NCBI RefSeq assembly: GCF_003073045.1
Contig: NC_037595.1
Span: forward strand, 7,305,509-7,369,508
Source: Pomacea canaliculata
Taxonomy: Eukaryota; Mollusca; Gastropoda; Architaenioglossa; Ampullariidae
Length of the DNA stretch: 64,000 nucleotides
Direction: 5' to 3'
Shown here: one piece after another, positions 42,543-61,915 of the stretch
How positions within the stretch are numbered: the stretch's first letter is position 1
Layout: every line of letters starts with the position of its first letter
Program-made: the position numbers and the translations under genes
The notes under the pieces: generated by a model
The model's input: the letters and a program-made list of their open reading frames with translations, nothing else
Told to the model about the DNA's origin: nothing
Database searches by the model: none

Positions 42543-42725
42543 GAAGCGGGCAGCTTCACCTTCCACTTGCCGCTGTGAACCTGTGACCGGTGACCCATGA
42601 CCCACGATCTGGGCAGTGACTTTGTCGCCCTCTTTAGTCGCTGTTCCACTGAGGATGGCTCGCTGGGGACCCCGTTGCAGGACCATGTTGTCGCCATGGT
42701 AATTGGACACGTGCAAGGCGGCCTC
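42543..42725 (-). pseudogene. Sialate O-acetylesterase-like N-terminal exon (minus copy)
   Basis: A minus-strand exon after TTTATTTAG encodes ALHVSNYHGDNMVLQRGPQR, GTATKEGDKVTAQIVGHG and, one frame on, HSGKWKVKLPAS. NY.GD.MVLQR.P is the N-terminal signature of sialate O-acetylesterase (SIAE), which removes O-acetyl groups from sialic acids in lysosomes or outside cells. A frame change lies near VTG and similarity stops after KLPAS. No catalytic (GDSL-like) region is found nearby, so it is probably a fragment. Confidence 0.6.
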
Positions 42726-42998: not shown

Positions 42999-43192
42999 GT
43001 CAAGCTGCTCTGCAGCTGGCAACTTACTATGGTGACCACATGGTTCTTCAACGAGGACCCAGCGGGATGTACTCTGGGGAACAGCCTCGAAAAACGGAGA
43101 CACAGTTTCTGCTCAGATCGTGGGTCATGGGTCACCGGTCACAGGACAGGTCCAAGGCATCCAGTACGGCAATTGGTTGTTAAAGCTGCCCT
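42999..43192 (+). pseudogene. Sialate O-acetylesterase-like N-terminal exon (plus copy)
   Basis: A plus-strand exon after CACTTTCAG encodes ALQLATYYGDHMVLQRGP and, after one missing base near 43,058, WGTASKNGDTVSAQIVGHG and YGNWLLKLPS. It is a paralogue of the minus-strand exon 270 bp away. Both start at an acceptor-like site and both lose similarity after KLP. The catalytic part is absent here as well. Confidence 0.6.
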
Positions 43193-43370
43193 CTTATTTT
43201 AATAGAAGCTGTTCAAACAAAAGTAAGACGTGCTTTAGTGTTGTTTTTAACCGGGAAACAACTGGACGAAGGAAATGGCGATTCTTTTCGCCTCTTGAAT
43301 ACAAATTTACGTACGTTCAAAAATATATATATATACTGAAAAAGAAAGCGATCCTGATTCGTGGGCCTAC

Positions 43371-44644
43371 CTTCCAGGGAAAAATTTCCTCTGGCGGTGG
43401 AGGCTTTTCTTCGGGTGGAGGTAACCCTTCTCCTCCGGCAGGACGGAGCCCGTCTCCTCCGAGAGGAAGCTGTCCTTCTCCACCGGGTGAAGTTCGCTTT
43501 TCTCCGCCGCCACCATCTCCCTCTGCGATTGCAGAACCACACCTGGAAGGAAGAACCACAATGTTAATATGTGTCTCTTTGAGTCAGGGCTGTTTAGTTA
43601 AACTAGTGGACTAGGCCAGTGGTTCTCAAAGTGTGGTCCGAGGGCATAAGTCAGGTGGTCAGCGGCTGCAGTCGTCATATGTCAGCAAAGTGATGTTTAA
43701 AGTGATGCATTCCTCGCATTAACATTTTAATTACAAATTACGAGGTAGGTAGTTTTATGTCAACTTATTCTACTGTCACAAAAGGACATTTAGTTTTAAA
43801 TTGTAATGAAACAAATGCAGCAATTTAAATTTGAAATTCATCGTACAGAGTGATTTTTAGGCCTTGGTGGTCCGCCATATTTTGTACTTAAGTAAAGTGG
43901 TCCGCGGTCCGAAATACTTTGAGAACCACTGGACTAGGCGTTTACTGTTTACTGTGCTTACCCGGACCGTGGCTGCTGGCAGTCCGGTCGCGCGCTCGAG
44001 ATATTTCCTCCTTGCCAGCCTAGGATACTTATTAATTTCGAACTCGGTGTTCAGGATGCGTAGCTGGTCGGCCGTATATTGCCTCCGTGGCCTACGCACC
44101 CTCATCTGTGGCTGGGCAGGAGCGCTTGCGGTGGGTCCTGCGACAGACAGGATCAGACAAGGCGTCAGGATATTTGTAGATGAATCAGATGTAATAAGAC
44201 GCCACTTAAAGAGGCGTGTTTATCAAATTTTTCTTTGTTTGCTTGATTTTTTTCTTTCCTTAATTTCTTGGCTCATTTTTTTTTTTTTTTGTTCACTTGT
44301 ATTGGTTTCTCCATTTTTCTTTCCCGTTTCATGTTTAAGTACTCACGTGGTTCTGGTTCTGCGTGACTTCTCCAGATAAGCTGGGCCAATGGACTAATTA
44401 AACCGGATTGAACCAGAGATTTCCGAATCCAGCCGAACCTGAAATGATGCCAGTAGTGTAACTCCATAACTTCATTCATTTTTCTGTTGTCTCCTCATAT
44501 TACGTTAGCTTTTCTAGTTTAAACAACTAAAAACACAAACAAACTTATTACTTATGCTTAGAATATCATTTTAGGGACATTTACTCACATATTTTGACTT
44601 GGAAATTTGCAATGTGCAATTGGTACAATCTTCCCTCTTTCTGG
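43371..44644 (-). CDS. Divergent homeobox gene 1
   Basis: Exons 44644-44589 (tentative), 44438-44347, 44137-43962 and 43542-43371, all GT-AG and in phase. The homeodomain starts about PRRQYTADQLRILNTEF, with helix 1 TADQLRILNTEFEINKY, helix 2 LARRKYLERATGL and helix 3 split by an intron: ATVR then VWFCNRRGRW. W48, F49, N51 and R53 are present; Cys at position 50 recalls POU homeodomains, and the 46/47 intron recalls PRD-class genes. The exon after helix 3 reads as an Arg-rich tail in the in-phase frame; the other frames are Gly/Pro- or Glu/Lys-rich, so a shift there cannot be excluded. Its likely role is a nuclear DNA-binding regulator. Its class is uncertain and no stop exon was found. Confidence 0.65.
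43617..43931. mobile_element. hAT-type MITE inside the homeobox 1 intron
   Basis: The 315-bp element starts CAGTGGTTCTCAAAG and ends CTTTGAGAACCACTG, perfect terminal inverted repeats, flanked by GACTAGGC on both sides (43,609-43,616 and 43,932-43,939). The 8-bp TSD and CAGTGGTTCTCAA ends are typical of hAT MITEs. Removing it leaves an intron of about 96 nt. Confidence 0.92.
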
Positions 44645-47600
44645 CTAGGCGGCTGGCAGAGCAATGTACAGTAATCGTTATACTTCATTTTTACGTCATT
44701 GATACACGCATTCTGAAAACTTTCGTCACAGTATTTCGTCATTCACATTTAGAGAAACCTTAGCCAGATCTAGACGAATCTTAAGTGTCATAAATTTAGG
44801 TACTTTAAACAGCAGTTCTCTATGCAGTTTGTTATATTACTGTGATGAGATCGAACTTTACTTTGTACTTGGTTGTCGTAGGTATACCGAGTTGAGAGAA
44901 GAGTGTATTCCTCCCAAGCTCTGTAAATTTTCATCTCACTTTATCTTTTCTGTACTTACGGCTGATAAAAATCTAGGCATAACACTTTGCTTAGCCATTT
45001 ACCTCTACAAAGCATCAGACCGGAGGAATAAGGATGACACACATCGAAGAAATTATTGTTCTCTTTTCAAATAAACTGCGACAAGAACCCTATGCTGTCA
45101 ATCACAATGCCATTTCTCGTCTTTTTGATCAACTGCCTAAACTGGGGACGTTGCAAAAGACGTTTTCCACTCTTGCAGTCAACAGGCTACTTATTTTCAA
45201 TCGAAAACGAAAGAAAAATAATTTGCTCCTATATTTATCCTCCCTACCCTGGAACATTCTAGACCTCCCTCGCAACAATGACATTCTACTTTGTAGCAAA
45301 AAAGACATTTAACAGTGTTCAACATTGCAGAACCTTCTAGAGTCCAGATGCAAAGGAACAAAGACATTCTATTCTACTTTGTCGCAATCAAAGACATGCT
45401 ACCTTGTTACATTACTGCCGTGCTGAACATTCTAGAAGAAATCGGCAAATATTCTACTTTGTACACTACTAGAGTGCTACATATGTTTGTCAGTAATTTC
45501 TGGCAAGTTGAAGCTGCAAGGCACGTGTGGCTACTGAGCCAGGAAAGCTTGCCTTGCTGGTTATCAATTCGATGCACTCGTGGACGTAAGGTGTTAAGTG
45601 TCATTACGGGGATTTCCTATCAGGTGTTTGTGAAATAATAATAGACACACCTAGTACAGTGAACCACACTGAAATGCTTGCAGGAAGTTTTGCTGTTTTA
45701 AGCAATGTTTACATGACAAGTCTAGTATTTGGGGTCTTAATCAGAGTTCTTGGAAGCAAATAGTCAGTTAGGAATTTTCCCGAACATCACCATGTAGACA
45801 AAGGGATTAGCAACACTGTTGTAAGGATGACACATAGGTTTAATTTGCGAAGGCCTTAGATAATAGGAGAGCAGATCAGAACCATATTCTAAAGTTTAAC
45901 CACATGCTGTTCGTCAATTTTTAATCACAACTCGAAATAACTGACCAAGATGTTATATGACAGAGGGTTGATGCCGCAGAAAGGCACAATAAGACCTGGG
46001 TCGTGATGGGATAACTGACCGATGACACGTGCTTTACTCAGTTCTGACATAGATAACTGCTAATATAAGGCTAGGTTCATAGGCAGTTCTGAAAAATAGC
46101 ATCGGCTACAAACCAGTGCTATGAACTCCAGAAGATCAGCTCCATTCGTCATACTCCTCTCTTGCAATCATTATTGTCTGCAATGTAAACCATTGTGCAA
46201 CTACTCTTTTTGTACACTGTTTATAGTATCTATATATATCCATTCACACCTTTATCCATCTTGTGCTTTATCTTTATGCTGCTCAGTGTGTCTATATGCA
46301 TCTTACCGTTCACTGTTATCTAATGTTTATCATCATTGGTCAGCGCAGAGAGTGCGACCTATCTTAGACGGGATGCAATGCGATACAAGTACATAATTAT
46401 TATTGCTACGTGATGCAGGAAAGCTGATGTACAGGGGTACGCAGTGACATAAATAAGTACACGCCATTATGAAAATAAGTACTTTTATGCGCGAACTTAC
46501 GTGCGAGGGGTACCCGCGGCCATGCTTTCCCTTTTTTAGGGGCACGGTCGCGAAAACAGGTTGAGAATCTTTGCTCTAGAAATCCTTATCTTGCGTACCA
46601 ACAGTTTCAGCTTGTTAGGGTTCAACGGAAGTAAAACACACCCACGGGGAACGGATCAAGTCTACGTCATAATTACGGTTGCTGAATTGTACTCTCCTTG
46701 ACCACCAATGTCTTTGTGTGTATTACATCATTAAATCACCTCCAACCCCATCAGAAACTAATAATGCTTTAAACTCGTATTACCCGTCGGCAAAATTCAC
46801 CATTCACCCCGGTTACACAGGAACAGATAAAAGCAAGGAGCAAGATGGTGGGAGCTTGTGATCTCTTGACGCCACTAAAGTTATTTCTTTTCACAAATCA
46901 GCCTGTGAGACACAAAATTTAACTGTGATTCTCGAATAGGACAGCAGTTCAAGGCATCAAAATAACAGGACACTAAAAGTATAATATCACATCTTGAAGT
47001 TCATATGTTCTTTAAATATGAACTATGAAGTTCATCTCTACTTTAAATGTACAGGACGGCTCACTTAGAAGCTTTCCGACTTGTCTGAGCAAACATGGGA
47101 GGAGTAGCCCATAGACAGTTCCAGTCGCCAAGTGCAGCTTCCAGGTCATTGTATGCACGTGACGGTTCCGCGCGCTGGACCCAAAGTTGTCCAGGAACAG
47201 CAGAGCCAGTCCATCTAGTCATCAGCCCTCTGTCGTAGAGACCATCCCTTCCTTGCCAGCGGCTCTTGCAACTGGGTTGCTTATGGAAGGCACGTACACC
47301 CGCTCACCTTGTGGAATTCTACAGCAATTTTGTGTCCACCATTTCTAGTGGCAGACTGTATCATCTGATGTAGGTGGCACTGATGCCATATATGGAACAG
47401 TTTGAACTGTGAAGGTCAAGCAAAGAGGGGCGGGGAAGCGGATTGTCGAGTGGCTAGTGCTCTGTCATACGAAAGTGATTGGGAGTAAGAGAATAACATC
47501 CATTGTTCTTGAACTTGTCCGGGACTATTGTCCATTGTTTGTTTGTGTTTAACGCCGTGCCAGCAACTAGGGCCATATTACGGCAAGGGACTATTGCCGA

Positions 47601-47649
47601 ATAAAGCAGTTGGTTGAGTAGTCACTAGTCAGTCTTATTATGTATGAAC
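44645..47649. other. Spacer with possible GPCR remnant and degenerate repeats
   Basis: 45,240-45,480 has recurring GACATTCTACTTTGT and AACATTCTAGA motifs, a degenerate repeat. 47,549-47,588 (TTTAACGCCGTGCCAGCAA, then GGCCATATTACGGC) looks like the core of a dispersed invertebrate repeat, probably SINE-related. No complete gene is seen. Confidence 0.4.
45770..45890 (-). pseudogene. Possible class A GPCR TM7 remnant
   Basis: The minus strand encodes CHPYNSVANPFVYMVMFG, which fits the TM7 N...NPxxY motif of rhodopsin-like receptors, in an open stretch of about 38 codons. No TM1-TM6 homology was seen to the right, so it is a fragment or a chance match. Confidence 0.35.
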
Positions 47650-49142
47650 TTTGCTCACATTAAGTGGCTATACAGTGGCGGAGCATGCTATGCATTCTGC
47701 ATACGCGGGTGTTTGCAACGAGCCGCATATTGCCTGTACCGATTCCTTGCCAATGGGGTTGTTGTCCGTCAACACAGAGAAGCTGTGACCATATACGTAG
47801 TCGTGGAATTTCTCGCTTGTGCGCCGGGTAGTTCCGCTCCGAGCGGCTCAGTCCCCTGCTTGCAAAACACACCACCCGTTTCTGATTGTCTTGCACCTGG
47901 TACAGCACTGCTCCCAACCCGTGAATGCTGGCATGGGTGTGCAGTTCAAACGACTGAGCGTAGTCTGGAAATGCCAGCACTGGAGGTGGCGACAAGCAGT
48001 CCTTCAATTTCCTGAACGCTTCTTCTTCCCTCGTGCCCAACACCCATTTGACGGATTTATTAGCTTTTTCATCTTTGCCTCCCTTCTTTCTTCCTTTCAG
48101 CACGTCCGGCAGCAAGTCGGTGAGGGGCTTGGCGATTGCCGAAAACCGTCTCACGAAACGCCTATAATAACCTGCGAATCCCAGAAACTGTCGTACCTCC
48201 TCAGGTGTCCTGGGCACTGGCCAGTTTTTCACCTTCTCACATTTTTCCGGATCTGTCTCGACTCCAGCAGCTGACACGATATGTCCCACACATTTCACTC
48301 GATCCTGTGCGAATGTGCACTTCTTGGGGTTCAATTTCAAGCCACAATCCCGTAGTCTGTCTAGCACTCTCTCCACTCTTTCCAGATGCTCATCAAACGA
48401 ACTGGAAAACACAATGATGTCATCGAGAAACACCAGGCATATGTGAAGATGTAGGTCCCCCAAACACTCTTCCATGAGGCGTTGATATGTGGTCGGTGCA
48501 TTCGCCAGCCCCGTTGCCATGCGATTGTATTCATAGAATCCAAGGGGCGCAACTGAGAATGTTGTACGTTCTTTGTGCTCCTCGGTTATCTCTACCTGAT
48601 GATAACCGCTCTTTAGGTCGAGGACAGTGAAATACTTGGACCCCGCTAAGGCGTCGAGCAATTCCTCTATCCTCGGCAGTGCGTATGAGTCTTTGATTGT
48701 CCGTGCGTTGAGCTGTCTGTAGTCCACACATTGCCGTAGGCTACCGTCTTTCTTTTTAACCCAGACAACATTCGATGACCAGGGTGAATGTGATGGTCTA
48801 ATAATCCCACTGTCCAGCAGCTGTTGCTCTCTCACCTGTTCGTACATGCCGGGTGGGATTCGGCGATGCCGTTCTTTAAACGGTGTATCATTTGTCAACT
48901 GTATTTCATGTTTGACCCGTGTGACATGACCAACATCCGTTTCGCCGGTTGAAAAATTCTCGGGGCGGCCGCCAATTAGGTCTCTGATGCGTGCTTGTTG
49001 CTCCATCTCGAGATGAGTCAGACATGTTATTTCGCGAAGTCGCATAGCCCAGTGATAAGCTACTTCCTTGTTTACGAGCGTCAGGGAAAAGTGCGCTGTG
49101 ACGTAGCCATGGCGCCAGAAATGGCGGCAAGATCAGTTAGTG
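47650..49142 (-). mobile_element. Ty3/Gypsy LTR retrotransposon fossil, pol fragment
   Basis: A minus-strand reading frame of about 460 codons covers the reverse transcriptase (VDYRQLNARTIKDSY, LDLKSGYHQVEI, FLDDIIVFSSS) and the start of RNase H (ASIHGLGAVLYQ). The order and motifs are those of Ty3/Gypsy pol. No LTR, gag, protease or integrase is recognised, so it is a broken remnant cut at both ends. It ends on the right where the hAT-type terminus begins at 49,143. The still-open RT region suggests moderate age. Confidence 0.85.
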
Positions 49143-50280
49143 CAGGGATGCCCAACCTACGGCCCGCGGGCCATATCCTGCCCGCGACGCGGTCACATCC
49201 GGCCCGCGAAACTTCTGCCCACAGTACAGGAAATCGGCATGTTAGTAATATATATATATAAAACAAAACCCGAAAAAAAGGGAAGAAGTAGTATTTATCC
49301 CTACGTAAGGGTGTCTCTCAATCTTTTTTTTTTTTCGATGGACGAACATTTCGATTCACTGCTCCGACTGAGAGGAAGGGACGCAAGGCTACCGTATAAA
49401 CTGGCCAGACCACCGTGGCCAGGGGACGAAACTAGGGTGGGAATGGCCGCAGGGCCACCCCCTTCCTCGCTCCGCTACCCGACGGTGCTGAGCCAGCGAT
49501 GCGACACGTTCTATGCCATCTACCGAAACACGGACACATATAGACAAACCAAACAGTATAACACAGATAACTTATGTTGAGTACCAGCCACAGTCGTTGA
49601 TGATAAAAGAGTGCCCTTGTGTAGTTTTAGAAATGTTACTTATGCACTTCCCCCTGAGTCGTAGATAGCAATAATACCAGTCTCTCTGTCTCTAAAGAAA
49701 ACTACCAATATAGGGACTCAGAGTCTTTGCCTTACTTAGGTGAAGTCAAAGCCGTCCATTCGCACTAAACCGTTGGTGCCTAGTAAGATGGAAGTCCTCG
49801 TGCTTCGCTAGCTTTTCACAAAGTGTAAGGGTTCCTGTCTGATTGGCAAGACTGGGGTATTGGTATGCAACTAATTCGTTACTGGCTTTCTGTGTTCCCG
49901 ATGGCCAGTGCGGCCCCTTTGGTTGTAAGCGATAGCAGATAATTTTAGGGTGACAGCGAGTGGGTGGGGGATATTTTATGTTGGACAAACGAAAACCGCC
50001 AAAGAAAAGGCGTCGCATTATGGGGGAGGGGGGAGGGAGACCACACTCGATGTACCGATGTACTGTCCGGCTGCTTTCTTCGCTCAGGCTTCAACACAGC
50101 CTGCAATTAGCATGGCAAACAATACCAAGAGACTGTCCCCGATCTGCTGATCGTCAGAGGTGTTAGAGCCTCCACTTGCCTCAGGGCCCGCTTTTGTGAC
50201 GGTGATGACCGTCTCCTCTCTACGTTCCCCTACCTTTCTTCAGTTCTTTGCTCTTTGTGAGGAATTACGTCTCAAATATT

Positions 50281-50350
50281 GGGGGGGGGGAGGATATTCC
50301 TGCCCCCCCCCCTGTATTTTCCTTGGGGGGGGGGGCTGCCCCCCTGGTTC
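50281..50350 (+). repeat. Poly-G/poly-C runs (G-quadruplex prone) with a TIR-like end
   Basis: Runs of 9-12 G alternate with runs of C, then TTCCTACGCCACTG, which on the other strand reads CAGTGGCGTAGGAA, a common MITE terminus. No matching left terminus was found. Confidence 0.6.
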
Positions 50351-50364
50351 CTACGCCACTGACT

Positions 50365-50500
50365 ATATAACTATAGAATGAAATCTATAAGTACAGAATG
50401 AAATGTATATCTATAGAATGCATTCTATAATTATAGAATTGAATGGCATAAATATAAAATGTATTGTATACGTATAAAATGTATTGTATAGCTATAAAGA
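50365..50500 (+). repeat. AT-rich minisatellite of TATAGAATG units
   Basis: Imperfect units of about 20-24 bp such as CTATAGAATGAAATCTATAA and CGTATAAAATGTATTGTATA, repeated five or six times. Confidence 0.7.
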
Positions 50501-50716
50501 GAAAATTAAGAAAATGCCCCTCTCGGCGCCCCATAACCCTGAACTGTTCATGCACTACAGTGGTGATGTAGCGGGAGTGCTAGTCAGCGTGTACCACTGA
50601 CAATTACTTTTTCCCTCTACCCCGCACCCCCTGCCACCCCATCACTGGTCGCACGAGCTGCGCAGCCTGAGGCAGACCATGCAGCGGATGACGTTGCACC
50701 CAAATATTTTAGTGTA

Positions 50717-51245
50717 TATACTACTACTACTATTACTCTTCGTGCATCAGGTTGCACATATGGCCTCGACCAGAGTCCGCCACCGATGTCGATCGGCTGA
50801 AACCCGCACTAGGTGACCCCATGTCCAGCCCTTTCCTTTCATCTCCCTTTCCGCTGTTCTTCTCCAAGTTTCCTTTTGGCGGCCTCGTTTTCTTCGGCCG
50901 TCTGGAGTCCATCGTAGGGCGACTCTGGAGAGGTCTGCTGTCTGCTGGCGGAGCACATGTCCAATCCATCGTTGAACTTGTGTGTTGATGGACTCGGTTT
51001 CAGTTCTTCGGTGGAGTTCTTCATTGGTGATGGTGTTTGGCCAAAAGATGTTAAGTATGCGCCTGAGACATCTGTTTTGAAAGACGACAAGTCTGTTACT
51101 GATGGTTTTGCTCATCTTCCATGATTCTGATCCGTAAAGGAGGGTGCTGATGACAGTTGACTGGAAGATTCTCAGCTTGATCTTCTTACTGATGTTTGTT
51201 GCCTTCCATGTGCTCCTGAGTGAGGCGAAGGCGTGGCTGGCTTTT
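50717..51245 (-). mobile_element. LINE 3' fragment (end of reverse transcriptase ORF)
   Basis: The minus strand encodes the C-terminal end of a non-LTR reverse transcriptase: AFASLRSTWKATNISKK, then STVISTLLYGSE, FQNRCLRRILNIFWP, RWIGHVLRQ, RKRGRQKETWRRT and DRHRWRTLV, with a stop soon after and a short (TAG)n tail at 50,717-50,740. These motifs are shared by endonuclease-type LINEs widespread in molluscs and flatworms; the clade (RTE or a relative) is not certain. The 5' part, including the catalytic RT core, is missing, and a TA-rich tract abuts at 51,245. Confidence 0.75.
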
Positions 51246-51461
51246 TATATTATTATTATTTTATATTATTATTATTTTATATTATTATTCAAATATCCCA
51301 CTAATTCCTACATAATTAATGGTAAGTACAACTTGTTTCAAATAAAAATGGTATCTGCCATATTTTTTCTTCTTTTTTTGTATTTTTGCGGTGAGGCGGC
51401 CCGTGACACGCGTGTCATAAATGTATATGGCCCCCAGGCCGAAAAAGGTTGGGCATCACTG

Positions 51462-53530
51462 ATATAGAAGAAACGCAGCGACGACAAGAACCAGGACGAG
51501 GTCGATAAGATCGCTTGACCAAGATATATGTTCAAACGCAGCTCGCGCGTGAGCAGCAGCGCCACCACCAGCGGAGGCCACGATCGACGGCGTCTGGTGT
51601 GAGACTACGTCACTCCTGTCATATGGGACCATGTCACTTGGGACCATATGTCACTCCTGTCACTAATTGGGACCATATCACTCCTGTCCTTCGTTCTCTT
51701 AACTTGATACCCATATTTTGTCGCTTTCTATACAAACTGTCTCTGTTGTCTTTTAATGTCTTTGCAGGCTATGACTACTTCTCTGTACTTTTCTTCTTGT
51801 CCATCCAGGCCAAACTACTCCGCTCTTCGTCTGATCACGAACTTGTATCACTGGACTGCTGGCAGACGAGCTTTTTTCCAGTTTACTACTAAAACGAGGC
51901 GGATGTGTACAAAGCTTCCGGTTTATTTATACTTCAGAGTTCAGATTAACTACTAAAACGAGGCATGCTTTGAGAACCGCGTTTGAGAACCGCGGCCTTA
52001 CACCCTTTCCCATTGCTAGTCCTTTATCACACCCTTCCTTTTGCAATATCATGTTGCTCTCAGCTTGTTATTTGGTTTCTTTTTGTGTTTTCTGTATTTG
52101 ATTTTATTCTTCGTTTAGTACGGTTATTTTTACTGTTTATATATAGTTCATATGTTTGTTTGCTTTTCTGTCACTCGTATGCTGTCCATGTTTCGTTCTT
52201 TTACATAGGCGCCAAGAGTACACTCCTTTGTAGTGAGAGTATGCGCTTTACAAATTTTGTATTATTATTAAAGGCCCCTTGTTTTACATAAAGGGCCGAG
52301 AATTAATTCCCACATTATTTAATCAAGCTAATTTATATTAACTGAACAATAGATGAGATGATGATGATAATGATAATGATAACTGACTGGCATACGACAT
52401 TGTCCCGCGACGAGAGATTCGAATGGGAGAACACTCGTATTTTATATCACTTATTTCCCTTTACACAAATTCAGGAGGTCACGGGCTGATGGCTCTCAAA
52501 TTCCTTTGCGCGTCATGACGTGATGCAATTCATAAAAGGCGTCACATGGTCACATGCTGTCCTGAATCGTAAGTATGTCACACTCTTATGTATTATCTAC
52601 AAATGGTGCTTTCAAAGTTTTTAAGGACTGTTACATGACAAAAGCACATTTCAGTAACTGGGCAAAGTCATGAAGCGTCAAACTCTCCGATATGCCCCAA
52701 AGCCACCATTGTACTGGCATTGACTGAATGTTCCGAACAATCGCCTCAAACCATTGTTTTCCTGTGGCCTTAATAATAATGTGAGAAATATAGCGAAAAT
52801 CTCAGCCAAAGGCACACGCACTGCGGGGAACAATATCATGAAATAGTCACACAGATGTAGAACGAGTAACAATGCGAAGATTCAATGCATTCCGTCAGTA
52901 AAGGGTGATCACTGCACGTTTAACGGTAACGACTCCAGAGAATGTATAGAAATACATAAATGTAGACACTGTGTTTGGTTTAATGCATAGGTGGTCCTTT
53001 GGCTGCCTTAAAAATTCTTAAATGTTTCCAATGTAATATTTTATAATTTTAAAATGACTTTTTTCTTGATAGGAAATGAGAACAAGAAAAAAGGTACGTC
53101 CCTCGTTTCTGGTTTTATGTACAGCCTGGGGGAAAAAAATAATATAACGTGACGGCTGTGTTTACTTTCCATGCTTGTATTTACTTTGCATGTTTGCTCA
53201 AAAAAGCATGTAATGTTGCTTTTTTTTTTACTTCTTTGTGACAGTTTTATTCCATATATTTTTAAAGTTTAATAGTAGGTTTTTTATAAATGTTTTACAA
53301 AGGTTTAAGCAAAAACCTTTCATAATGTTAAATTTTAAACCACGCATACTCTCTGAAGTTCCACTTCAAACATGGCAACAATGACATACACAGATTTTCA
53401 TTTCCTTTTCATGAAAACATATTTAATGTCATTGAGCATAAACCCAGGAAACATTTACATCATAATTAATCTTACATGTACAACAAATGTTGACCATTTA
53501 TGATAAAGCTTATGTACAGTTTCTGCAGAT
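51462..53530. other. Repeat-rich spacer, no gene seen
   Basis: 51,600-51,690 has short tandem repeats of GGGACCATATCACTCCTGTC type. 51,885-51,965 has two copies of ACTACTAAAACGAGGC. The remainder is AT-rich without splice-supported open frames. Confidence 0.45.
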
Positions 53531-53754
53531 AACAAAATGGGAAAATTGGGATTTTGTGATGATGACCCTTCTCCCACTCCCTTCCCCTCCTTACCACCGT
53601 CACCTACCCTCTCCAAAGCCTTCCCCTCCCCTGAAAATCCCTGGCCCCCCTCCCCCATAGTGCGAAATCGCCTTGAGGTGGAAGACCTCTCCCTTTCAAG
53701 CTCAACAACAACATGGCCCCGACCGTATCGGAGCATCGCAAAGTTTACCCTTTC

Positions 53755-53850
53755 CCAGAGGTATATAAGGGCAGAGCTGAGACGAAACGAAAATGACGTC
53801 ATCAGCAGCTTGTTGAATGGAATGAGTTAATAAAGTCCTTTTTTTATTAT
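53755..53850 (+). promoter_or_regulatory. TATA/CRE-containing repeated segment
   Basis: GTATATAAGGG at 53,761 is a good TATA box; about 30 bp on is TGACGTCATCAGCAGCTTG with a perfect CRE (TGACGTCA), then AATAAAG. The part from TGACGTCA onwards, about 57 bp, recurs nearly identically at 63,776-63,832. A TATA box followed by AATAAA recalls a fossil LTR, but no ends were found. Confidence 0.4.
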
Positions 53851-53965
53851 TTGCATCCAAAGGCAAAACGACGCCCCACGGCCCAGCAGCGAGAAGGTGG
53901 GAGGAGGGTGGAGGTCCCCCGTCTTGTAGCCGCAGTCAGGGTTCCAGGACGTCCTCGCCATCCAG

Positions 53966-54543
53966 GACGTCAAGCACATCAAGCACGCCAAGCACCTCAA
54001 GCACGCCCAATGGGTCATCTGGCCACGGTGCCTTATGTCGCAGGTATGACAAGATCCGAAGTCGTAGAAGACAGAAGAGACGGACTCGCTAGGATTGTCG
54101 GCATTAAGTTGACAATGTATCCTGAAGAGGATTTCCCTTAATATCAGCATATTCACTTTGAGTAGCATTATGTAGCACTTCATACAGCATAGGAGGCACT
54201 GAAACAGTTGATGCGTTATTCCTTTAAACAAGTTTTAGTTTTTTTTATATTCACGACGTCAAGCACGTCAAGCACGCAAAGCACCTCAAGCACGCCCAAT
54301 GGGTCATCTGGCCACGGTGCCTTATGTCGCAGGTATGACAAGATCTGAAGTCGTAGAAGACAGAAGAGACGGACTCGCTAGGATTGTCGGCATTAGGTTG
54401 ACGATGTATCCTGAAGAGGATTTCCCTTAATATCAGCATATTCACTTTGAGTAGCATTATGTAGCACTTCATACAGCATAGGAGGCACTGAAACAGTTGA
54501 TGCATTATTCCTTTAAACAAGTGTTTAGTTTTTTTTATATTCA
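53966..54543 (+). repeat. 289-bp direct tandem duplication
   Basis: Unit 1 spans 53,966-54,254 and unit 2 spans 54,255-54,543, nearly identical, each from GACGTCAAGCAC to TTTTTTATATTCA. Each has a Ser/Thr/Pro-coding stretch in one plus-strand frame followed by GCAGGTATGAC. No larger gene could be assigned. Confidence 0.85.
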
Positions 54544-56133
54544 GTGTAATTTATGTAAGTTCTATAGATACACAGTGATTTATGTAAGCAGTAACTGCTG
54601 CTGTGTGCATGCACATAAGTCTACAATGTGATTGCTATTGACAGCAGCTGCTTTACACTATTTCATTGTAACCACTACAAGCAGATCTGTTGTTTGATTT
54701 TATAATAAACAACTGCTATAGACTGTAACTGCTGCTGTTTGGTTATAGTATGCATTTTGATGGCACTAATGATGTTCCCTAGCAGGATGTGATCTGGTGT
54801 TTTCTTCTAAAGGCATCGATGATATGGTCTCTATACAAACAGGGATGTACAGGGCTGTAGACAGCTGTAGAGTTGATCGCTGTAAATAAGCTTATGTATT
54901 AAACATCACCAACAATTGTAACAAAATTTTGGCTCAAGATTTAAAAAAAATACAAATGCTTGTCATTAATTGTTGATTGCAACATAAAGATAAAAGTGGT
55001 TATAAATGATGCCTAGTTTAAATATAATTTTTTTCTGTTGAGAATTATATTTGTGTTATTAGAGAAATTTGAAACTCTACTAGCTTAAAATATTGCCAGC
55101 TAGTTTGTGTTGCTAGAATAAGGAAGAAAATGCATATACAAGAGAAAGCTAAGACTAGTTAATAGAAAATATAACATTTCAAGGTTTTCCTTATAGGTAC
55201 ATGGTAACAAAGAAAACAAATCTCATTTTTAGAACTTATTAGTACTGTAGTGCTGCCCATTTCAGCCAAGATTTATTTATTATTATTGCCACTAAATAAA
55301 TAAAGCATGATACTGAGCCATTAACGAATTTAATAACCCAATGTCATTTTTTTATAGTGACTTTTTCTACACTTTTCTTTTCTCAAATTTTCTAGACTTT
55401 TACAGTACTAATAAGTTCTAAAAATGAGATTTGTTTTCTTTGTTAACACCAACCAGCATTGAAAAGGTAAAAGATACTGGTGAATATGACAAACTAAAGA
55501 TAAAATTGTCTGGCTACATGGAGGTATTAAAATTAGGAACACATACACTGCCAAGTAGTTTGAAAATGTACACATTCAGCATCATGCAGAAACTGTAGCA
55601 TGTATCTAGAATGAGTCTTACCAACTGCAAAAATAATATCCTTGGTGTCCATATGATCGATCTGTTCACTACAACTTTGACATACAGTTCCTATCCGTCA
55701 CAGCAAGAAGAGGGCGGTGATTCACCTACCTACCTAGCCTACTAAAACGTAGCACCTAATTCCCTAGGGTGGGAAAAGAGGGGGTTGAGTGACGTGAGCC
55801 GCTTTCCAGAGGGACCAAAGCACCTTGCGACAAATCGGTACTACAAGAGAGGCTAGATATCCTCTCTGGTACTACTCTCGTACTCAGGGTGGACAGGACT
55901 AAAGGTTTACTAAGAGAGGGGTTTGAGTGACTTGAGCCGCTTTCCATGTGGATCAAGACACCTTGAGGTAAAATGGTGCTACTCTCGTACTGAGAAGCAA
56001 AGTTTTACTGCTTTTCCAAGCAGGACCAGTCGCCTTTCAGTAAACTGGTGTAATCACTGAACTTTGCCTGCTATATACACTAAAATATGTGTAATATATA
56101 TAATATAAAGTAATAATATAAAATAATAATAAT
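54544..56133. other. AT-rich spacer with a hairpin element and a degenerate duplication
   Basis: No gene seen. The hairpin element at 55,204-55,446 is listed separately. A degenerate duplication of about 136 bp (55,775-55,911 and 55,912-56,045) shares GAGTGAC.TGAGCCGCTTTCCA. Confidence 0.5.
55204..55446. mobile_element. Hairpin element with 45-bp perfect inverted ends
   Basis: TAACAAAGAAAACAAATCTC and the following 25 bases recur as a perfect reverse complement about 150 bp later. Such long identical inverted ends suggest a young MITE or a recent fold-back event. No coding capacity. A TSD was not resolved. Confidence 0.65.
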
Positions 56134-56335
56134 AATAATATAAAAAGCCAGCGACGCCTTCGCCTCACTCAGGAGCACATGGAAGGCAACAAACATCAGT
56201 AAGAAGATCAAGCTGAGAATCTTCCAGTCAACTGTCATCAGCACCCTCCTTTACGGATCAGAATATTTAATTCCCAAAGTAGCATATGAAGCAAGGCACT
56301 GTGACCAACAGCAAAAAGAGAAGAATATAAACTTC
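56134..56335 (+). mobile_element. LINE core fragment joined to a 60-bp non-LINE segment
   Basis: From AAAAAGCCAGCGACG to TTTACGGATCAGAA is the LINE segment encoding AFASLRSTWKATNISKK, identical over about 105 bp to the piece at 51.1 kb (opposite strand). It is followed by AATTCCCAAAGTAGCATA and about 45 more bases, which also follow the copy at 61.1 kb. Confidence 0.7.
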
Positions 56336-56446
56336 TTTGGTCTTTGTTTTTTATATCTGTTGAAATAGGTTTGATCAATGAATATATATATATTTCTAAC
56401 ACCTCTAGAAATAAAAATCTCTTAAATACTTAGAAAGACAATGTAC

Positions 56447-58914
56447 CCCTCCCTCCAGCTGTGGTAAAACCAGCTGCACGGACTGCTGTCATAGGTCTAG
56501 GGGCACCCTCTCCATCTATATTCCCAGTGATGGGTCGGCCTAAAGATGATGGCAGCCCCATTCGTCCTCTGGCAGCTGTTCCCATTCGAGCAGCAGTCCC
56601 TAGTCTTCCACCAGGTGCCATCCCCCCAATGCCTCCTCCCATGGCCATGCCACCCCTTGCTGCTGTCTGTTTGCACACAATTAATATTATAGGCACATGC
56701 TTTTCCAAATACAAAAAAAGCAACACCTTAAACAATAACAAATAATACAACAAACCTATACCTAAAGAGCAAGGCATTTTCCCTGCTCTATAGAAAATAA
56801 TGTTAGACTTTGCTTTACAGTTTAACTTAACTGTTACTTGTCTTAAAGTGCATATTGGCACTTACATTGTTAAATGTTTTGCATTAAACTGTTTTAAATT
56901 TCAGTTTTTATCTGAAATATGGACCCCAAAAGTGATTTATTAGCCACTCAAAAAATAGTAGTAGTTTAATAATATTTCACCAGTTATTAAACATAAGCAT
57001 TTCCACAAACAGCATATGAATTTGTCATTTCTTCATCTTTGATTTTTTTTAGCTAATGATAGCAGGTAATTCCCCATGGGTCTTTTAAGTTGATAGAGTT
57101 ATGAAAAGCACCAGTTGATTGTACAGCATACTGAACACACTACCTGCAGATGTGGTAGAGGAAGTGTTTGGTCAGCAAGTGTTTGGCATGCATGCCTTTT
57201 TGGTCCAGAGAGTAAAGACAAAGCGTCCCCTACTCCCAGCAATGCAAACAGCATTGTCCTCTAATGCTGCCAACCATCTATGGCACAAGATTCCAGATTC
57301 CCTAAGTACTGCTCTCTGAGTCATAAATTGCAGCATAACTCTACATAGCCACCAAAAGAATAATAATGATGTTTTAGCTTGTATAGCACCTTATCCTGGG
57401 CTGTGGACAGCTCAAGGCGCTTCACAAATGACAGAAGGTGCAGAAGTGCAGAAGGTGATCTGATGTTAAAATAAGGTGACGACAAAATAAAATGATGACA
57501 AAATGTCGGTGTTTAGCGGACCGTCCTTCACACCATAGGGAAGCATCCACATACAGCACGAGTAACAATTCAAAGTCCAAATATCAAAACATCATACCCG
57601 CCACAATACACTCCATGGCAAATGGAACACATCCAAGAGAGAATGTCTGACTGGAATGACGAACGAGTCCAGCACATACGAAAGTTCTCTGATCAACAGA
57701 ATTAAAGACGACATGAAGCCCACACAACTGTGCTGATCATGAAGTCTGCACATCGGAAAATTAAGCCACCAACATGGAAGAGACAGCACATATTCCAAGC
57801 ACACGATGGCAGGCCCATCAAAAACGCACGATCACAAGTCCAACATGAGGAAGACCTCAGATAAAACAAAAAAACAACAGAACATTGCCCCCTACAGCCA
57901 GTTAGGCAAGGCGACATCACTCTATATCTATATATAAAACATGCCAAGAAGAAACTCTTGCCACCTCATTGGTCGCTCGGTTGATAACAAAGGGAACCAA
58001 TAGATGGGTATCCATCATCCTGAATGCCACGGTTGCATCACCAGCCCTGACTGTTTCACTTTGCACACTAGACCACATAGTGTACTGGCCAGGACTTGAT
58101 CAATGTACACTCTTGGCTTATGAGACTATGAAAGTTTGCTCTGCTGTATTGTCAACCATCATGCTAAAAGCTGTAGCAACAAGCAAGCAATCGCCAGAAT
58201 AAAATTGTAACACCTAACAACCACTTGTTTCATGTTATCTCCACAAATTATTCCCAAGTACGTATCATGTAGTAGGCTACCCAGTTACAATGATAGCATA
58301 AAGATTAGGGCATCAGTATCTAGTGGTCCATTGAAACTTTTCTGCTCTTTGTTTCTGCAAGTCTGAGCATCTTTTCAGTAGAAAACCTAGAACAAAAAGA
58401 AAAGCTGATGACTTTTCAATCCCAGTGTTGTAATTTGCTTACTGGTGGTGGCCGTCTGCCATGACTTGTTCTTAAGACTGCCTTTTGGAAAATCTCATCA
58501 TGGGCAAGATCCTGAAAAATGTTTTACGAACAAACAATGTAGTAAGAATAATCTATCTTTGAGACAGAGGCTACTTAAACAGATCCTGCAATTTCAGACA
58601 AAACATCTCATAGTTAGAAAAATACATTGCATTTTGTTACAGTTACTATTACAAAAATTTACCTGTACCTGGTCAGAACATTGTCTACTTTCACAAATCT
58701 TTCTTTCCTCAAATTTCTTTCAATGCTACCATTTTTCTTTATTACATTGTAGCATTAACATGAGATGCAAATTTACAAACGTGTTGTATGTTTATTTTGC
58801 TATATAACCTAGCTAGTCAAAACTTACATCTGTATCCAGAGCAGCACTGTATTCATTAAAACCTCCATAAATATCCTCCTCTTCTTCTCCAGCAGGAGGA
58901 ATATGCTCCATCAT
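56447..58914 (-). CDS. IFT88: IFT88 homologue, first three coding exons
   Basis: IFT88 is a TPR protein of the intraflagellar transport B complex, needed to build cilia. Exon 1 (58914-58828) starts MMEHIPPAGEEEEDIYGGF, exon 2 (58511-58443) encodes DEIFQKAVLRTSHGRRPPP, and exon 3 (56666-56447) is Gly-rich and ends SSLGRPITG, then RPMTAVRAAGFT. Human IFT88 has AFQQAVRTSHGRRPP, SSIGRPMTG and RPMTAVRAAGFT in the same order. Exons 1 and 2 end in phase 0 with GTAAG donors; the exon 3 donor (AGGG|GTACAT) is weaker. The TPR part is not found anywhere to the left, so the gene is split by a very long intron, rearranged, or only a 5' copy. An LTR element begins about 20 bp upstream of the ATG. Confidence 0.85.
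56667..58442. other. Second intron of the IFT88 homologue
   Basis: Near 57,375-57,425 is TTGTATAGCACCTTATCC with AAGGCGCTTCACAAATG, a pattern common at the 3' ends of dispersed invertebrate repeats. Plus-strand open frames at 57,119-57,319 and 57,969-58,202 match nothing I know and have no splice support. No gene is assigned. Confidence 0.4.
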
Positions 58915-58934
58915 GTTAAGCCGAGTGAGCCCAG

Positions 58935-59273
58935 TGTAGAAAATGTATTTTCTACATTTTATCTTTTTTAAGGTGTAGTGTGTTTACTGTGTTTATTTAC
59001 TTTGTAATGTTTGATTAGAGTGGTTAAATTGGTTACTTGGACAAAACATCGTGTGCGGGCCAAGCTGGCACATCTCCTCTGGCTGGCGCGACAACCATCT
59101 CGCTGCCGGTGTCCAGATGTGTGATGTGTATAAATTTATCCATGTATTTTTGAAATTATATTCTTTAATTATTATCACAAACTACAGTGAATTGTTGTAA
59201 TTAGTTGTGTGGGCAAGTGTATGAATAAAAGAGTATCCATTGCGCAGCAGGACCCACGTAACCATCCATTACA
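58935..59273 (+). repeat. Left LTR
   Basis: Full LTR of about 339 bp, TGTAGA...TTACA, next to the TSD CCCAG. It includes AATAAA near its right end (GAATAAAAGAG). Confidence 0.85.
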
Positions 59274-60550
59274 ACTGGCGAGCCTGACGTAGAGTATTCA
59301 TTTATTAAGTTAAATTAATCTGATGCGAACTGTGGAATTTTTTCTGATTATTTGTGCCCTAGCATTTGTATTTATGCTATTGTTCAAAGTGCGTTAACAT
59401 TTATAAGTGGAAGTTGCATTATTTTCCTGATATTGGAACCATGGGGGGCAATAACATAGAGTTTCTAGAAAAGGCGCTCGAGGTTATGGAACAGCTAGAG
59501 CGAGAGGGGGAAACGAGGGGATATAGTGGTGATACCCTCGGTAACTTTATTCTGGAGGGACTTGACGGGTTTGACAGACAAAGACCAAGGGGTTGCTGCA
59601 TAAATTGTAATATGTAATGTATGTGATGGGTTGACCGCCGTTTTTTCCACCAAGCGGAACATGCGGTACCCAAGGGCGGCAGAGTAAGCGTCTGCGCGCC
59701 AGCAGAACCCTAGGGGTTGCTGCGCAGCGTCGGGGACGTACGGTCACGACGAGTTTTATTTTCTGACGGGGGATGACTGCCAGCTAAGTCCACTCAGTGG
59801 TAAAGTGGCGTACCCCTAGTGTAACCGGCACGGCTAAAGTGTCAGAGCCTCAGTGACTAGGCAGGTGTGAAAAAAAAAAGGGCCTTTACTGCTGCATGAA
59901 ACAGATTGTTGGACAGGCTGTGTAAAACGCACATTTTTATCACGAGGAGATGGTTGTACGTGTGAACAGACAATGCCCGATTATGTAGAGTAGTCTTAGC
60001 AACACGCAATTTTTTTTTTTTTTTTTTGAGGTGAATTGGTTTGTGGTGACTATGCTTTATTGATGATTAGTTGTTATATTTTGATTTTTGGCTGTGCTAT
60101 ACATTTGGGCATGTGTACTAATCGTTTTGGCTATCGGATGGATTTGTATTTCGAAAAAATTGTGCCTTAGCAGGCACAATTTTTCCCCCGGAGGAAGGGG
60201 TGATGTAGAAAATGTATTTTCTACATTTTATCTTTTTTAAGGTGTAGTGTGTTTACTGTGTTTAGTTACTTAGTTAACTAGAGGTAAGTAGATGCACTTC
60301 TAGTTTTTACTGCTGTGTCTTAAATGTCTGTATATGTATGCCTGCCCTTGTGAGCGAAGACAAATTTCTGTCCTGGGTATCCTCGACAGACAATAAAGTT
60401 TGTTTTGATTTGATTTTTTTGATTTTGAACATTTTTTTTTAATTTGTACGAGTCTAACCCATTGAAGAATTACACAAAATAAACGTGTAAAAACTAAAAT
60501 TTTCCGTACACCAGCTCACTGACTCACTCATTCTGCTTTATCATTTCAGT

Positions 60551-61038
60551 ATGGAATACATCCTCAGAGCTGCTTTCCAAGCTGTCAAAGCCGGAATTCA
60601 ATACATCATTGGGCATCGCCAACAACAGCCAGCCAATCAACAAATAATTAGACCAGCAAGGAGACAGGCACAAAGACCAAGAAGACTTAGGAACGTGTTA
60701 AATCCAAGACAAAGACAAGGAAGAAATCAACATCCCAGAATACATAATCAGAGAGTGAGAAGACAACAGCCAAGAAGAAGACACAGAAGACGACAAATAC
60801 TCAAACCATGGCAGTCGACTATGCTGAAAGATCAATTTAATATAAATCAATATGCGACTGCAGAAGTCGTCGCAACTATTTCCAGGCATACCCATTTGAA
60901 TTATATTTGGATTAGGGTAAGCACAGTAAACAGGCTCGGTGTCTAGTCCTAGTTGTTAACTAAACAGTCTTGACTTCAGAGACACGTTTTAACATTTTGG
61001 TTCTTCCTTTCCAGAGGTGGTTCGCCAACAGACGTGCC
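60551..61038 (+). CDS. Divergent homeobox gene 2 (truncated, inside the LTR element)
   Basis: Exon 60551-60916 follows ATTTCAG and opens MEYILRAAFQAVKAG. It continues through an Arg/Gln-rich stretch into a homeodomain-like region: helix 1 WQSTMLKDQFNINQY, helix 2 ATAEVVATISRHT, and helix 3 split as NYIWIR then RWFANRRA in exon 2 from 61,015. W48, F49, N51 and R53 are present, with Ala at position 50. The intron (60,917-61,014) is at the same codon as in homeobox gene 1 and aligns to it along nearly its whole length, starting with an identical GTAAGCACAGTAAACAG. Exon 2 runs straight into LINE sequence after NRRA, so this copy is truncated. The basic N-terminus may bind nucleic acid. Whether it is expressed is unknown. 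Confidence 0.6.
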
Positions 61039-61197
61039 TCACTCAGGAGCACATGGAAGGCAACAAACATCAGTAAGAAGATCAAGCTGAGAATCTTCCA
61101 GTCAACTGTCATCAGCACCCTCCTTTACGGATCAGAATTCCCAAAGTAGCATACGAAGCAAGACACTGTGACCAACAGCAAAAAGAGAAGAATATAA
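61033..61197 (+). mobile_element. LINE core fragment plus 60-bp segment, third copy
   Basis: Joined to homeobox 2 exon 2 at a shared GCC, then identical to the 51.1-kb and 56.1-kb LINE pieces over about 100 bp, then AATTCCCAAAGTAGCATA and following bases as at 56.3 kb. It ends where the second LTR-element internal copy begins (CGGCACGGCTAAAG). Confidence 0.7.
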
Positions 61198-61579
61198 ACC
61201 GGCACGGCTAAAGTGTCAGAGCCTCAGTGACTAGGCAGGTGTGAAAAAAAAAAGGGCCTTTACTGCTGCATGAAACAGATTGTTGGACAGGCTGTGTAAA
61301 ACGCACATTTTTATCACGAGGAGATGGTTGTACGTGTGAACAGACAATGCCCGATTATGTAGAGTAGTCTTAGCAACACGCAATTTTTTTTTTTTTTTTT
61401 TTTGAGGTGAATTGGTTTGTGGTGACTATGCTTTATTGATGATTAGTTGTTATATTTTGATTTCTGGCTGTGCTATACATTTAGGCATGTGTACTAATCG
61501 TTTTGGCTATCGGATGGATTTGTATTTCGAAAAAATTGTGCATTAGCAGGCAAAATTTTTTCCCCGGAGGAAGGGGTGA

Positions 61580-61915
61580 TGTAGAAAATGTATTTTCTAC
61601 ATTTTATCTTTTTTAAGGTGTAGTGTGTTTACTGTGTTTAGTTACTTTGTAATGTTTGATTAGAGTGGTTAAATTGGTTAGTTGGACAAAACATCGTGTG
61701 CGGGCCAAGCTGGCACATCTCTGGCTGGCGCGACAACCATCTCGCTGCCGGTGTCCAGATGTGTGATGTGTATAAATTTATCCATGTATTTTTGAAATTA
61801 TATTCTTTAATTATTATCACAAACTACAGTGAATTGTTGTAATTAGTTGTGTGGGCGAGTGTATGAACAAAAGAGTATCCAATGCGCAGCAGGACCCACG
61901 TAACCATCCATTACA
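61580..61915 (+). repeat. Right LTR
   Basis: Full LTR with the same start and end as the left one, preceded by the polypurine tract GGAGGAAGGGG and followed by the TSD CCCAG. Confidence 0.85.

Follow-up and report, generated by a model that had tools for sequence, protein, structure and literature searches.

Homeobox genes are textbook examples of conserved genes. An intron between homeodomain residues 46 and 47 is present in many PRD-class members of this group, where it is common without being exclusive to them (PMC2211742, PMC2938728), and the ancestral Paired homeodomain is described with an intron at homeobox position 139 (PMC1779571). Lophotrochozoan-specific PRD clades are known from the oyster (PMC5322547). 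Here we examine two homeobox genes, gene 1 and gene 2, that share an intron at this position in a 64,000-nucleotide stretch of the genome of the apple snail Pomacea canaliculata (NCBI RefSeq assembly GCF_003073045.1, contig NC_037595.1, forward-strand positions 7,305,509 to 7,369,508), hereafter the window.

Two described systems come close to what is seen in these genes. In the Hessian fly, the genes for small secreted salivary gland proteins (SSSGP) have conserved introns and non-coding DNA around highly variable coding sequence, for which concerted homogenisation has been proposed, and dN/dS lies above 1 in their moderately diverged members (PMC2955719). In mammals, the ETCHbox genes TPRX and LEUTX are fast-evolving, duplicating PRD-class genes with conversion between paralogues (PMC8208926, PMC10246821), which affects the 5' part, homeobox included, more often than the rest (PMC8208926).

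We report that gene 1 and gene 2 have similar introns within strongly diverged homeodomains, and that the same discrepancy recurs across a large family of related genes. Ectopic recombination via shared non-coding DNA is the likely cause, and would decouple the histories of introns and exons and re-pair the homeodomain halves. All comparisons are between sequences within one snail genome assembly, in which C6 denotes the contig carrying the window, and C9 and C11 two other contigs.

Results

Two genes with similar introns and diverged exons

The two genes are about 16.4 kb apart and on opposite strands, the minus strand for gene 1 and the plus strand for gene 2. In gene 1, the P-type exon A (43962-44137, with homeodomain residues 1-46 at 43962-44099) is followed by a 419-nt intron (43543-43961) and by exon B (43216-43542), which begins VWFCNRRG; its frame runs open to the stop at 43216, and 43371 is a possible donor site. 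A probable upstream coding exon, read from the sequence, occupies 44347-44438 on the same strand, with acceptor CATCATTTCAG, donor GTGAGT and a frame continuous with exon A; the stretch around it (44330-44499) has copies near other family clusters at 74-88% identity. Gene 2 comprises an X-type exon A (60550-60916, with ATG at 60551 and homeodomain residues 1-46 at 60779-60916), a 98-nt intron (60917-61014) and a Y-type exon B (61015-61149). The latter begins RWFANRRA and at 61036, its eighth codon, enters a tail derived from a long interspersed nuclear element (LINE; 61036-61138), continuing up to the stop. Against the Pfam Homeodomain model (cut-off 22.9), the spliced product of gene 1 scores 59.9 bits and that of gene 2 scores 37.4 bits.

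The greater length of the gene 1 intron is due to a miniature inverted-repeat transposable element (MITE) of about 315 nt (43617-43931, no strand assigned), which we take to be hAT-like. It has the terminal inverted repeat CAGTGGTTCTCAAAGT and an 8-bp target-site duplication, GCCTAGTC, found on each side of it; the inverted-repeat arms (43611-43632 and 43916-43937) are 95% complementary. Removal of the element together with one GCCTAGTC repeat leaves 96 nt.

A sequence-only reading of the window had proposed that both genes split the homeodomain at the same codon, that the introns, about 96 nt without the MITE and 98 nt, align nearly end to end from 17 shared first bases, and that the exons differ strongly in GC content. 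Each of these proposals holds. Both introns are GT-AG, in phase 0, and lie between residues 46 and 47, just before xWF.NRR; their first 17 nt are identical. Aligned end to end without the MITE, they are 80.2% identical with gaps counted (BLAST, E 3e-17 in the window), or 0.895 across 95 aligned bases with gaps left out. The global alignment score of 107 compares with a mean of -17.5 (sd 10.0, largest 20) in 2000 shuffles, a z of 12.5, which rules out chance similarity. The homeodomain parts of exon A have a GC content of 0.58 in gene 1 and 0.38 in gene 2. They agree at 49 of 138 nucleotides, against a mean of 34.0 (sd 5.0) in shuffles, and at 12 of 46 residues. The exons, described earlier as having almost no similarity, are indeed only weakly alike, but their resemblance is still above chance. 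The exon being far more diverged than the intron, gene 2 is rejected as a neutrally decaying copy of gene 1.

A switch of gene type inside the gene 2 intron

A tandem array at 8.58 Mb on C6 contains genes of two unlike types, X and Y, in alternation. The two types are 98.5% identical in their upstream DNA (394 columns), 97.2% in the 3' flank (393 columns) and 95-96% in the intron, with 51-54% identity in the homeodomain exon; in exon B the first 24 nt are 79% alike and the sequence beyond is divergent. The non-coding block upstream of gene 2 (60275-60549, plus strand) is 94-99% identical to that of X-, Y- and Z-type loci at 8.58 Mb. Gene 2 itself carries an X exon A and X alleles at intron nt 19 and 22, followed by Y alleles at nt 61 and 72 and a Y exon B with the LINE-derived tail. 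Of the informative sites before intron nt 23, 106 match X, 10 match Y and 8 match neither; beyond it, 52 match Y and none matches X (Fisher P 1e-33, sites taken as independent). The change from X-like to Y-like therefore falls inside the intron, at window positions 60938-60977. Either gene 2 is the hybrid or the X genes have taken on a different 3' half, and each case requires recombination.

A run of variant codons in exon A is common to gene 1 and locus 6241344 and absent from 6214574 and 6253088, both close relatives of 6241344. This patch looks like a short conversion tract.

Intron and exon divergence across the family

From 35 donor sites, 13 had no acceptor under the rule used and were left out, giving 22 genes and 231 pairs, with the intron length set to 98 nt for 8584393 and 8586702. 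Four of these genes (8582153, 8583449, 4216645 and 3065576) have a frameshifted, interrupted or partly foreign exon A, and their exclusion gave a clean set of 18 genes and 153 pairs; intron identities in both sets omit gaps. Trees were compared for 16 genes, with insertions taken out of four introns. Tree length was 0.53 substitutions per site for the intron and 7.93 for the exon, and by the approximately unbiased (AU) test the intron tree is rejected on the exon data (P 6e-8) and the exon tree on the intron data (P 0.0016).

The sequence-only reading had suggested setting intron identity against the divergence of the flanking exons. When this is done, synonymous sites prove at least as diverged as non-synonymous ones. 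The median proportions of synonymous (pS) and non-synonymous (pN) differences in the exon are 0.59 and 0.31 for the 16 clean pairs whose introns reach 95% identity or more, and 0.80 and 0.45 for the 67 clean pairs with introns 90-95% identical. Loci 3155432 and 4228858, 1.07 Mb apart, have identical 268-nt introns, a shared insertion included, with an exon A identity of 61% in nucleotides, a pS of 0.73 and the same codon at 11 of 25 conserved degenerate residues. The MITE provides a neutral yardstick: it sits in the introns of gene 1 and of the eight other P-type loci compared, and over the first third of the element, the part spanned by the comparison, the nine copies are 93-100% identical (100-111 nt), with exon pS values there of 0.05-0.80.

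Codon models for four overlapping exon A sets (22, 7, 5 and 4 genes) gave omega values of 0.21-0.38. Thus the exons on average look constrained, with synonymous sites diverged too. Among 21 distinct exon B types, a hand-picked list from which interrupted ones were dropped, residues 50 and 54, which we take to be base-contacting positions, are highly variable, and residues 48, 49 and 53 are nearly fixed.

A clustered family of homeobox genes

The first 17 nt of the intron have 15 exact matches genome-wide, all of which fall within the 3.07-8.59 Mb interval of C6, and a reversed-pattern control has none. The whole gene 2 intron has at least 37 matches (30 on C6, six on C11 and one on C9), these counts being lower bounds. 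Following an earlier suggestion to tabulate the exons flanking such matches, we found that 35 of the 37 listed adjoin homeobox-like exons and that the other two are remnants within the same arrays, so that the matches mark a gene family and not a mobile intron. Among the 23 matches in longer examined stretches, 21 adjoin a homeodomain half-exon (18 start at most 27 nt after an exon A match and three sit directly before exon B), the two others being the array remnants. The 14 read in short stretches comprise nine after an open exon A, three after a degenerate exon A, one with a Pfam homeodomain match and exon B, and one with exon B alone. A dispersed repeat, as a description of the intron, is accordingly rejected.

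In 264 kb of C6 (200 kb plus the window), a family hidden Markov model (HMM) found 57 exon A pieces. Open reading across all 46 codons is retained by 28 of the 36 exon A copies with a donor, which encode 26 distinct proteins at a median pairwise identity of 28%; the remaining eight carry stops. PF00046 scored above its cut-off in both window genes and in all ten other spliced members submitted. Genome-wide, 150 of 271 candidates were scored with this model, with at least 22 in the C6 region and at least 28 on C11, some of them from outside this family. Judged by sequence, the window genes belong to a large, clustered apple snail family of homeobox genes that is provisionally placed in the PRD class.

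Protein searches yielded 31 word-sharing candidates for gene 2 (131 aa) and 181 for gene 1 (117 aa), none under the threshold; as these searches also failed to return ordinary homeodomains, they say nothing on rarity. Viral and genome contigs scanned for the intron pattern gave no match, nor did viral contigs searched with gene 1, and a PDB search returned mainly ordinary homeodomain chains.

Twice on C6 (6240750/6241344 and 6252494/6253088) a P-type exon A is preceded on its own strand, at a distance of exactly 594 bp, by a W-type exon A. No W-type acceptor was found near either W-type copy, one of which (6252494) contains a stop, and mutually exclusive homeodomain halves are possible. On C11, three homeodomain matches at about 180-bp spacing occupy 17173004-17173511, and on C6 a minus-strand match at 8579123-8579254 is intronless across the 46/47 joint, with one TAG.

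Surroundings of gene 2 and other features of the window

The tail behind xWFANRRA is a C-terminal piece of a LINE reverse transcriptase (DUF6451) in frame with the homeodomain, scoring 24.5 bits in gene 2, below the cut-off of 28; it is common to five loci, gene 2 and 8582153, 8583449, 8585775 and 8588064 on C6. Gene 2 is flanked on both sides by repeats resembling long terminal repeats (LTRs), 98% alike (58935-59273, 59823-60274 and 61197-61915), which are remnants of an LTR element. Given the stops in eight of the 36 exon A copies and the transposon-derived sequence in which the gene 2 homeodomain ends, some family members, perhaps gene 2 among them, may be decaying.

Elsewhere, a retroelement on the minus strand (47663-49132) has a single open frame that encodes both a reverse transcriptase domain (Pfam RVT_1, 123.9 bits) and an RNase H domain. 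An inverted pair at 42580-42715 and 43011-43145, 78% alike and with no Pfam match in either frame, presumably represents sialate O-acetylesterase-like exons. Tandem plus-strand frames at about 20.8-36 kb repeat a CVRRCFSLTS motif; two motif frames had no Pfam match, and a frame near the array contains a PAN domain (42.5 bits). Minus-strand exons at 56433-58940, also without a Pfam match, presumably resemble the start of IFT88.

Discussion

Recombination and its alternatives

The recombination that we favour would act on a homeodomain encoded in two parts, half-exon A for residues 1-46 and half-exon B from residue 47 on, which a short intron separates at the ancestral 46/47 site. Paralogues would pair via their shared non-coding DNA as homology, through gene conversion, crossover or both. 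Conversion tracts halting at unlike exons would keep introns and flanks young and alike, and the half-exons would retain old, separate histories or be swapped whole; tracts or crossovers ending within the intron would bring an A half next to a B half from a different paralogue. Recombination of this kind, as gene conversion or exon exchange, was among the explanations raised by the sequence-only reading, and it is supported by the X-then-Y pattern of gene 2 and by the conflict between exon and intron trees. We infer conversion as the main process, with selection keeping the exon types different. Old exons with homogenised introns and young duplicates with replaced exons are two versions of this account, either of which fits these data.

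A functional constraint on the intron, for splicing or regulation, beside exons that are simply old is an unlikely alternative. The intron is recognisable on three contigs, copies on C6 and C11 agreeing at about 80-85% over its first 60 nt, and many columns are invariant among 14 introns; yet elements inserted within introns are as alike as the intron itself, the flanks beyond it are equally alike, and the 14 introns show no conserved RNA fold (RNAalifold z 0.76). Constraint is insufficient alone because inserted elements and flanks are just as alike, and it may add to the ancient intron similarity between contigs. Diversifying selection on point mutations, which in recent duplicates would split the homeodomain exons as neutral introns lagged behind, had been among the explanations offered. 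We consider it very unlikely as the whole cause, although fold residues are fixed beside the variable residues 50 and 54 in the 21 exon B types and the pattern recalls effector and venom families. Synonymous sites have diversified at least as much in the 16 clean pairs with the most similar introns, omega stays at 0.21-0.38 (averages over the sites and branches of the exon A sets), and together these mean that diversifying selection alone fails; moreover, point mutation cannot produce the X-then-Y pattern.

Neither can targeted hypermutation, in which coding exons would mutate much faster than adjacent non-coding DNA, and which would also leave discrete combinations of A and B halves unexpected. 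It does find support in loci 6214574 and 6241344, which differ at 13 of 138 homeodomain exon sites and 12 of 917 non-coding sites (Fisher P 2e-6), several of the exon differences being synonymous; part of this difference, however, is the patch common to gene 1, and some pairs are identical in both exon and intron, making the idea highly improbable. A mobile intron inserted at the same site in unrelated homeobox genes would account for the same sequence at the same codon between unlike exons, and had also been put forward. We regard its probability as close to negligible: none of the 37 matches listed lies in a non-homeobox context, the DNA beyond the intron is conserved too, and 46/47 is a standard PRD-class intron position (PMC2211742).

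Several observations weigh against recombination as the general explanation. The switch between gene 2 and the X genes fits either direction; the direct evidence amounts to a single three-way comparison plus the patch in exon A. The decoupling is incomplete: identity in the intron is correlated with that in the exon (r 0.52 for all 231 pairs, 0.59 for the 153 clean ones), X, Y and 4224833 are grouped together by both intron and exon trees, and several close pairs are alike in both parts, with 4226790/4230138 and 8584393/8586702 identical throughout exon and intron. The intron trees, finally, rest on few sites because the introns are short.

Should recombination of this kind be general in the family, a tentative and rather doubtful extension is that it forms a cassette system for predicted DNA-binding specificity. 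The 46/47 intron would be its recombination platform, and the fold-bearing A halves and the recognition-helix B halves, with variable residues 50 and 54, would be continually re-paired into a diverse homeodomain repertoire, perhaps following mobile DNA or another moving target. The family suggests recombination, besides point mutation, as a way for a repertoire of transcription factors to expand, and its members lend themselves to tests of homeodomain specificity and of ectopic recombination. It also carries a warning that intron similarity can badly mis-date paralogues.

Comparison with known systems

Cassette loci such as the fungal mating-type loci have like flanks around unlike coding blocks. 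The snail family shares this organisation, but with many loci in place of two alleles, and no switching was seen. With PRD-class genes that have the 46/47 intron (PMC2211742, PMC2938728), it shares both the homeodomain and the intron position; it differs in having homeodomains that are extremely diverged within one genome and an intron sequence that is shared. A mobile intron class would have copies in unrelated genes, and among the 37 matches listed none lies outside a homeobox context. ETCHbox membership is impossible by definition, these genes being eutherian-specific duplicates of CRX. The snail genes resemble TPRX and LEUTX as PRD-class duplicates with conversion among paralogues, but conversion there makes the homeobox alike (PMC8208926), whereas in the snail the homeodomain exons are unlike and the introns alike; LEUTX, moreover, is described as under positive selection (PMC8208926, PMC10246821), in contrast to the average omega of 0.21-0.38 in the snail.

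The Hessian fly SSSGP genes follow a similar pattern, in that clustered duplicates in the snail likewise have introns and flanks more alike than their coding sequence. They differ in encoding secreted effector-like proteins and in a dN/dS above 1, against the low average omega of the snail family, and the available text of that report presents no two-parent gene with an intron switch, such as gene 2 (PMC2955719). The earlier suggestion of an undescribed system therefore has to be narrowed, since conserved introns around variable coding sequence are published for the fly; no report of this family, or of the pattern in homeobox genes, was found in the literature searched, a scope with most subscription papers and all bioRxiv preprints outside it. 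What is new is that these features meet in a homeobox family of an animal: divergence at both synonymous sites and amino acids beside near-identical introns, and a switch resolved inside an intron.

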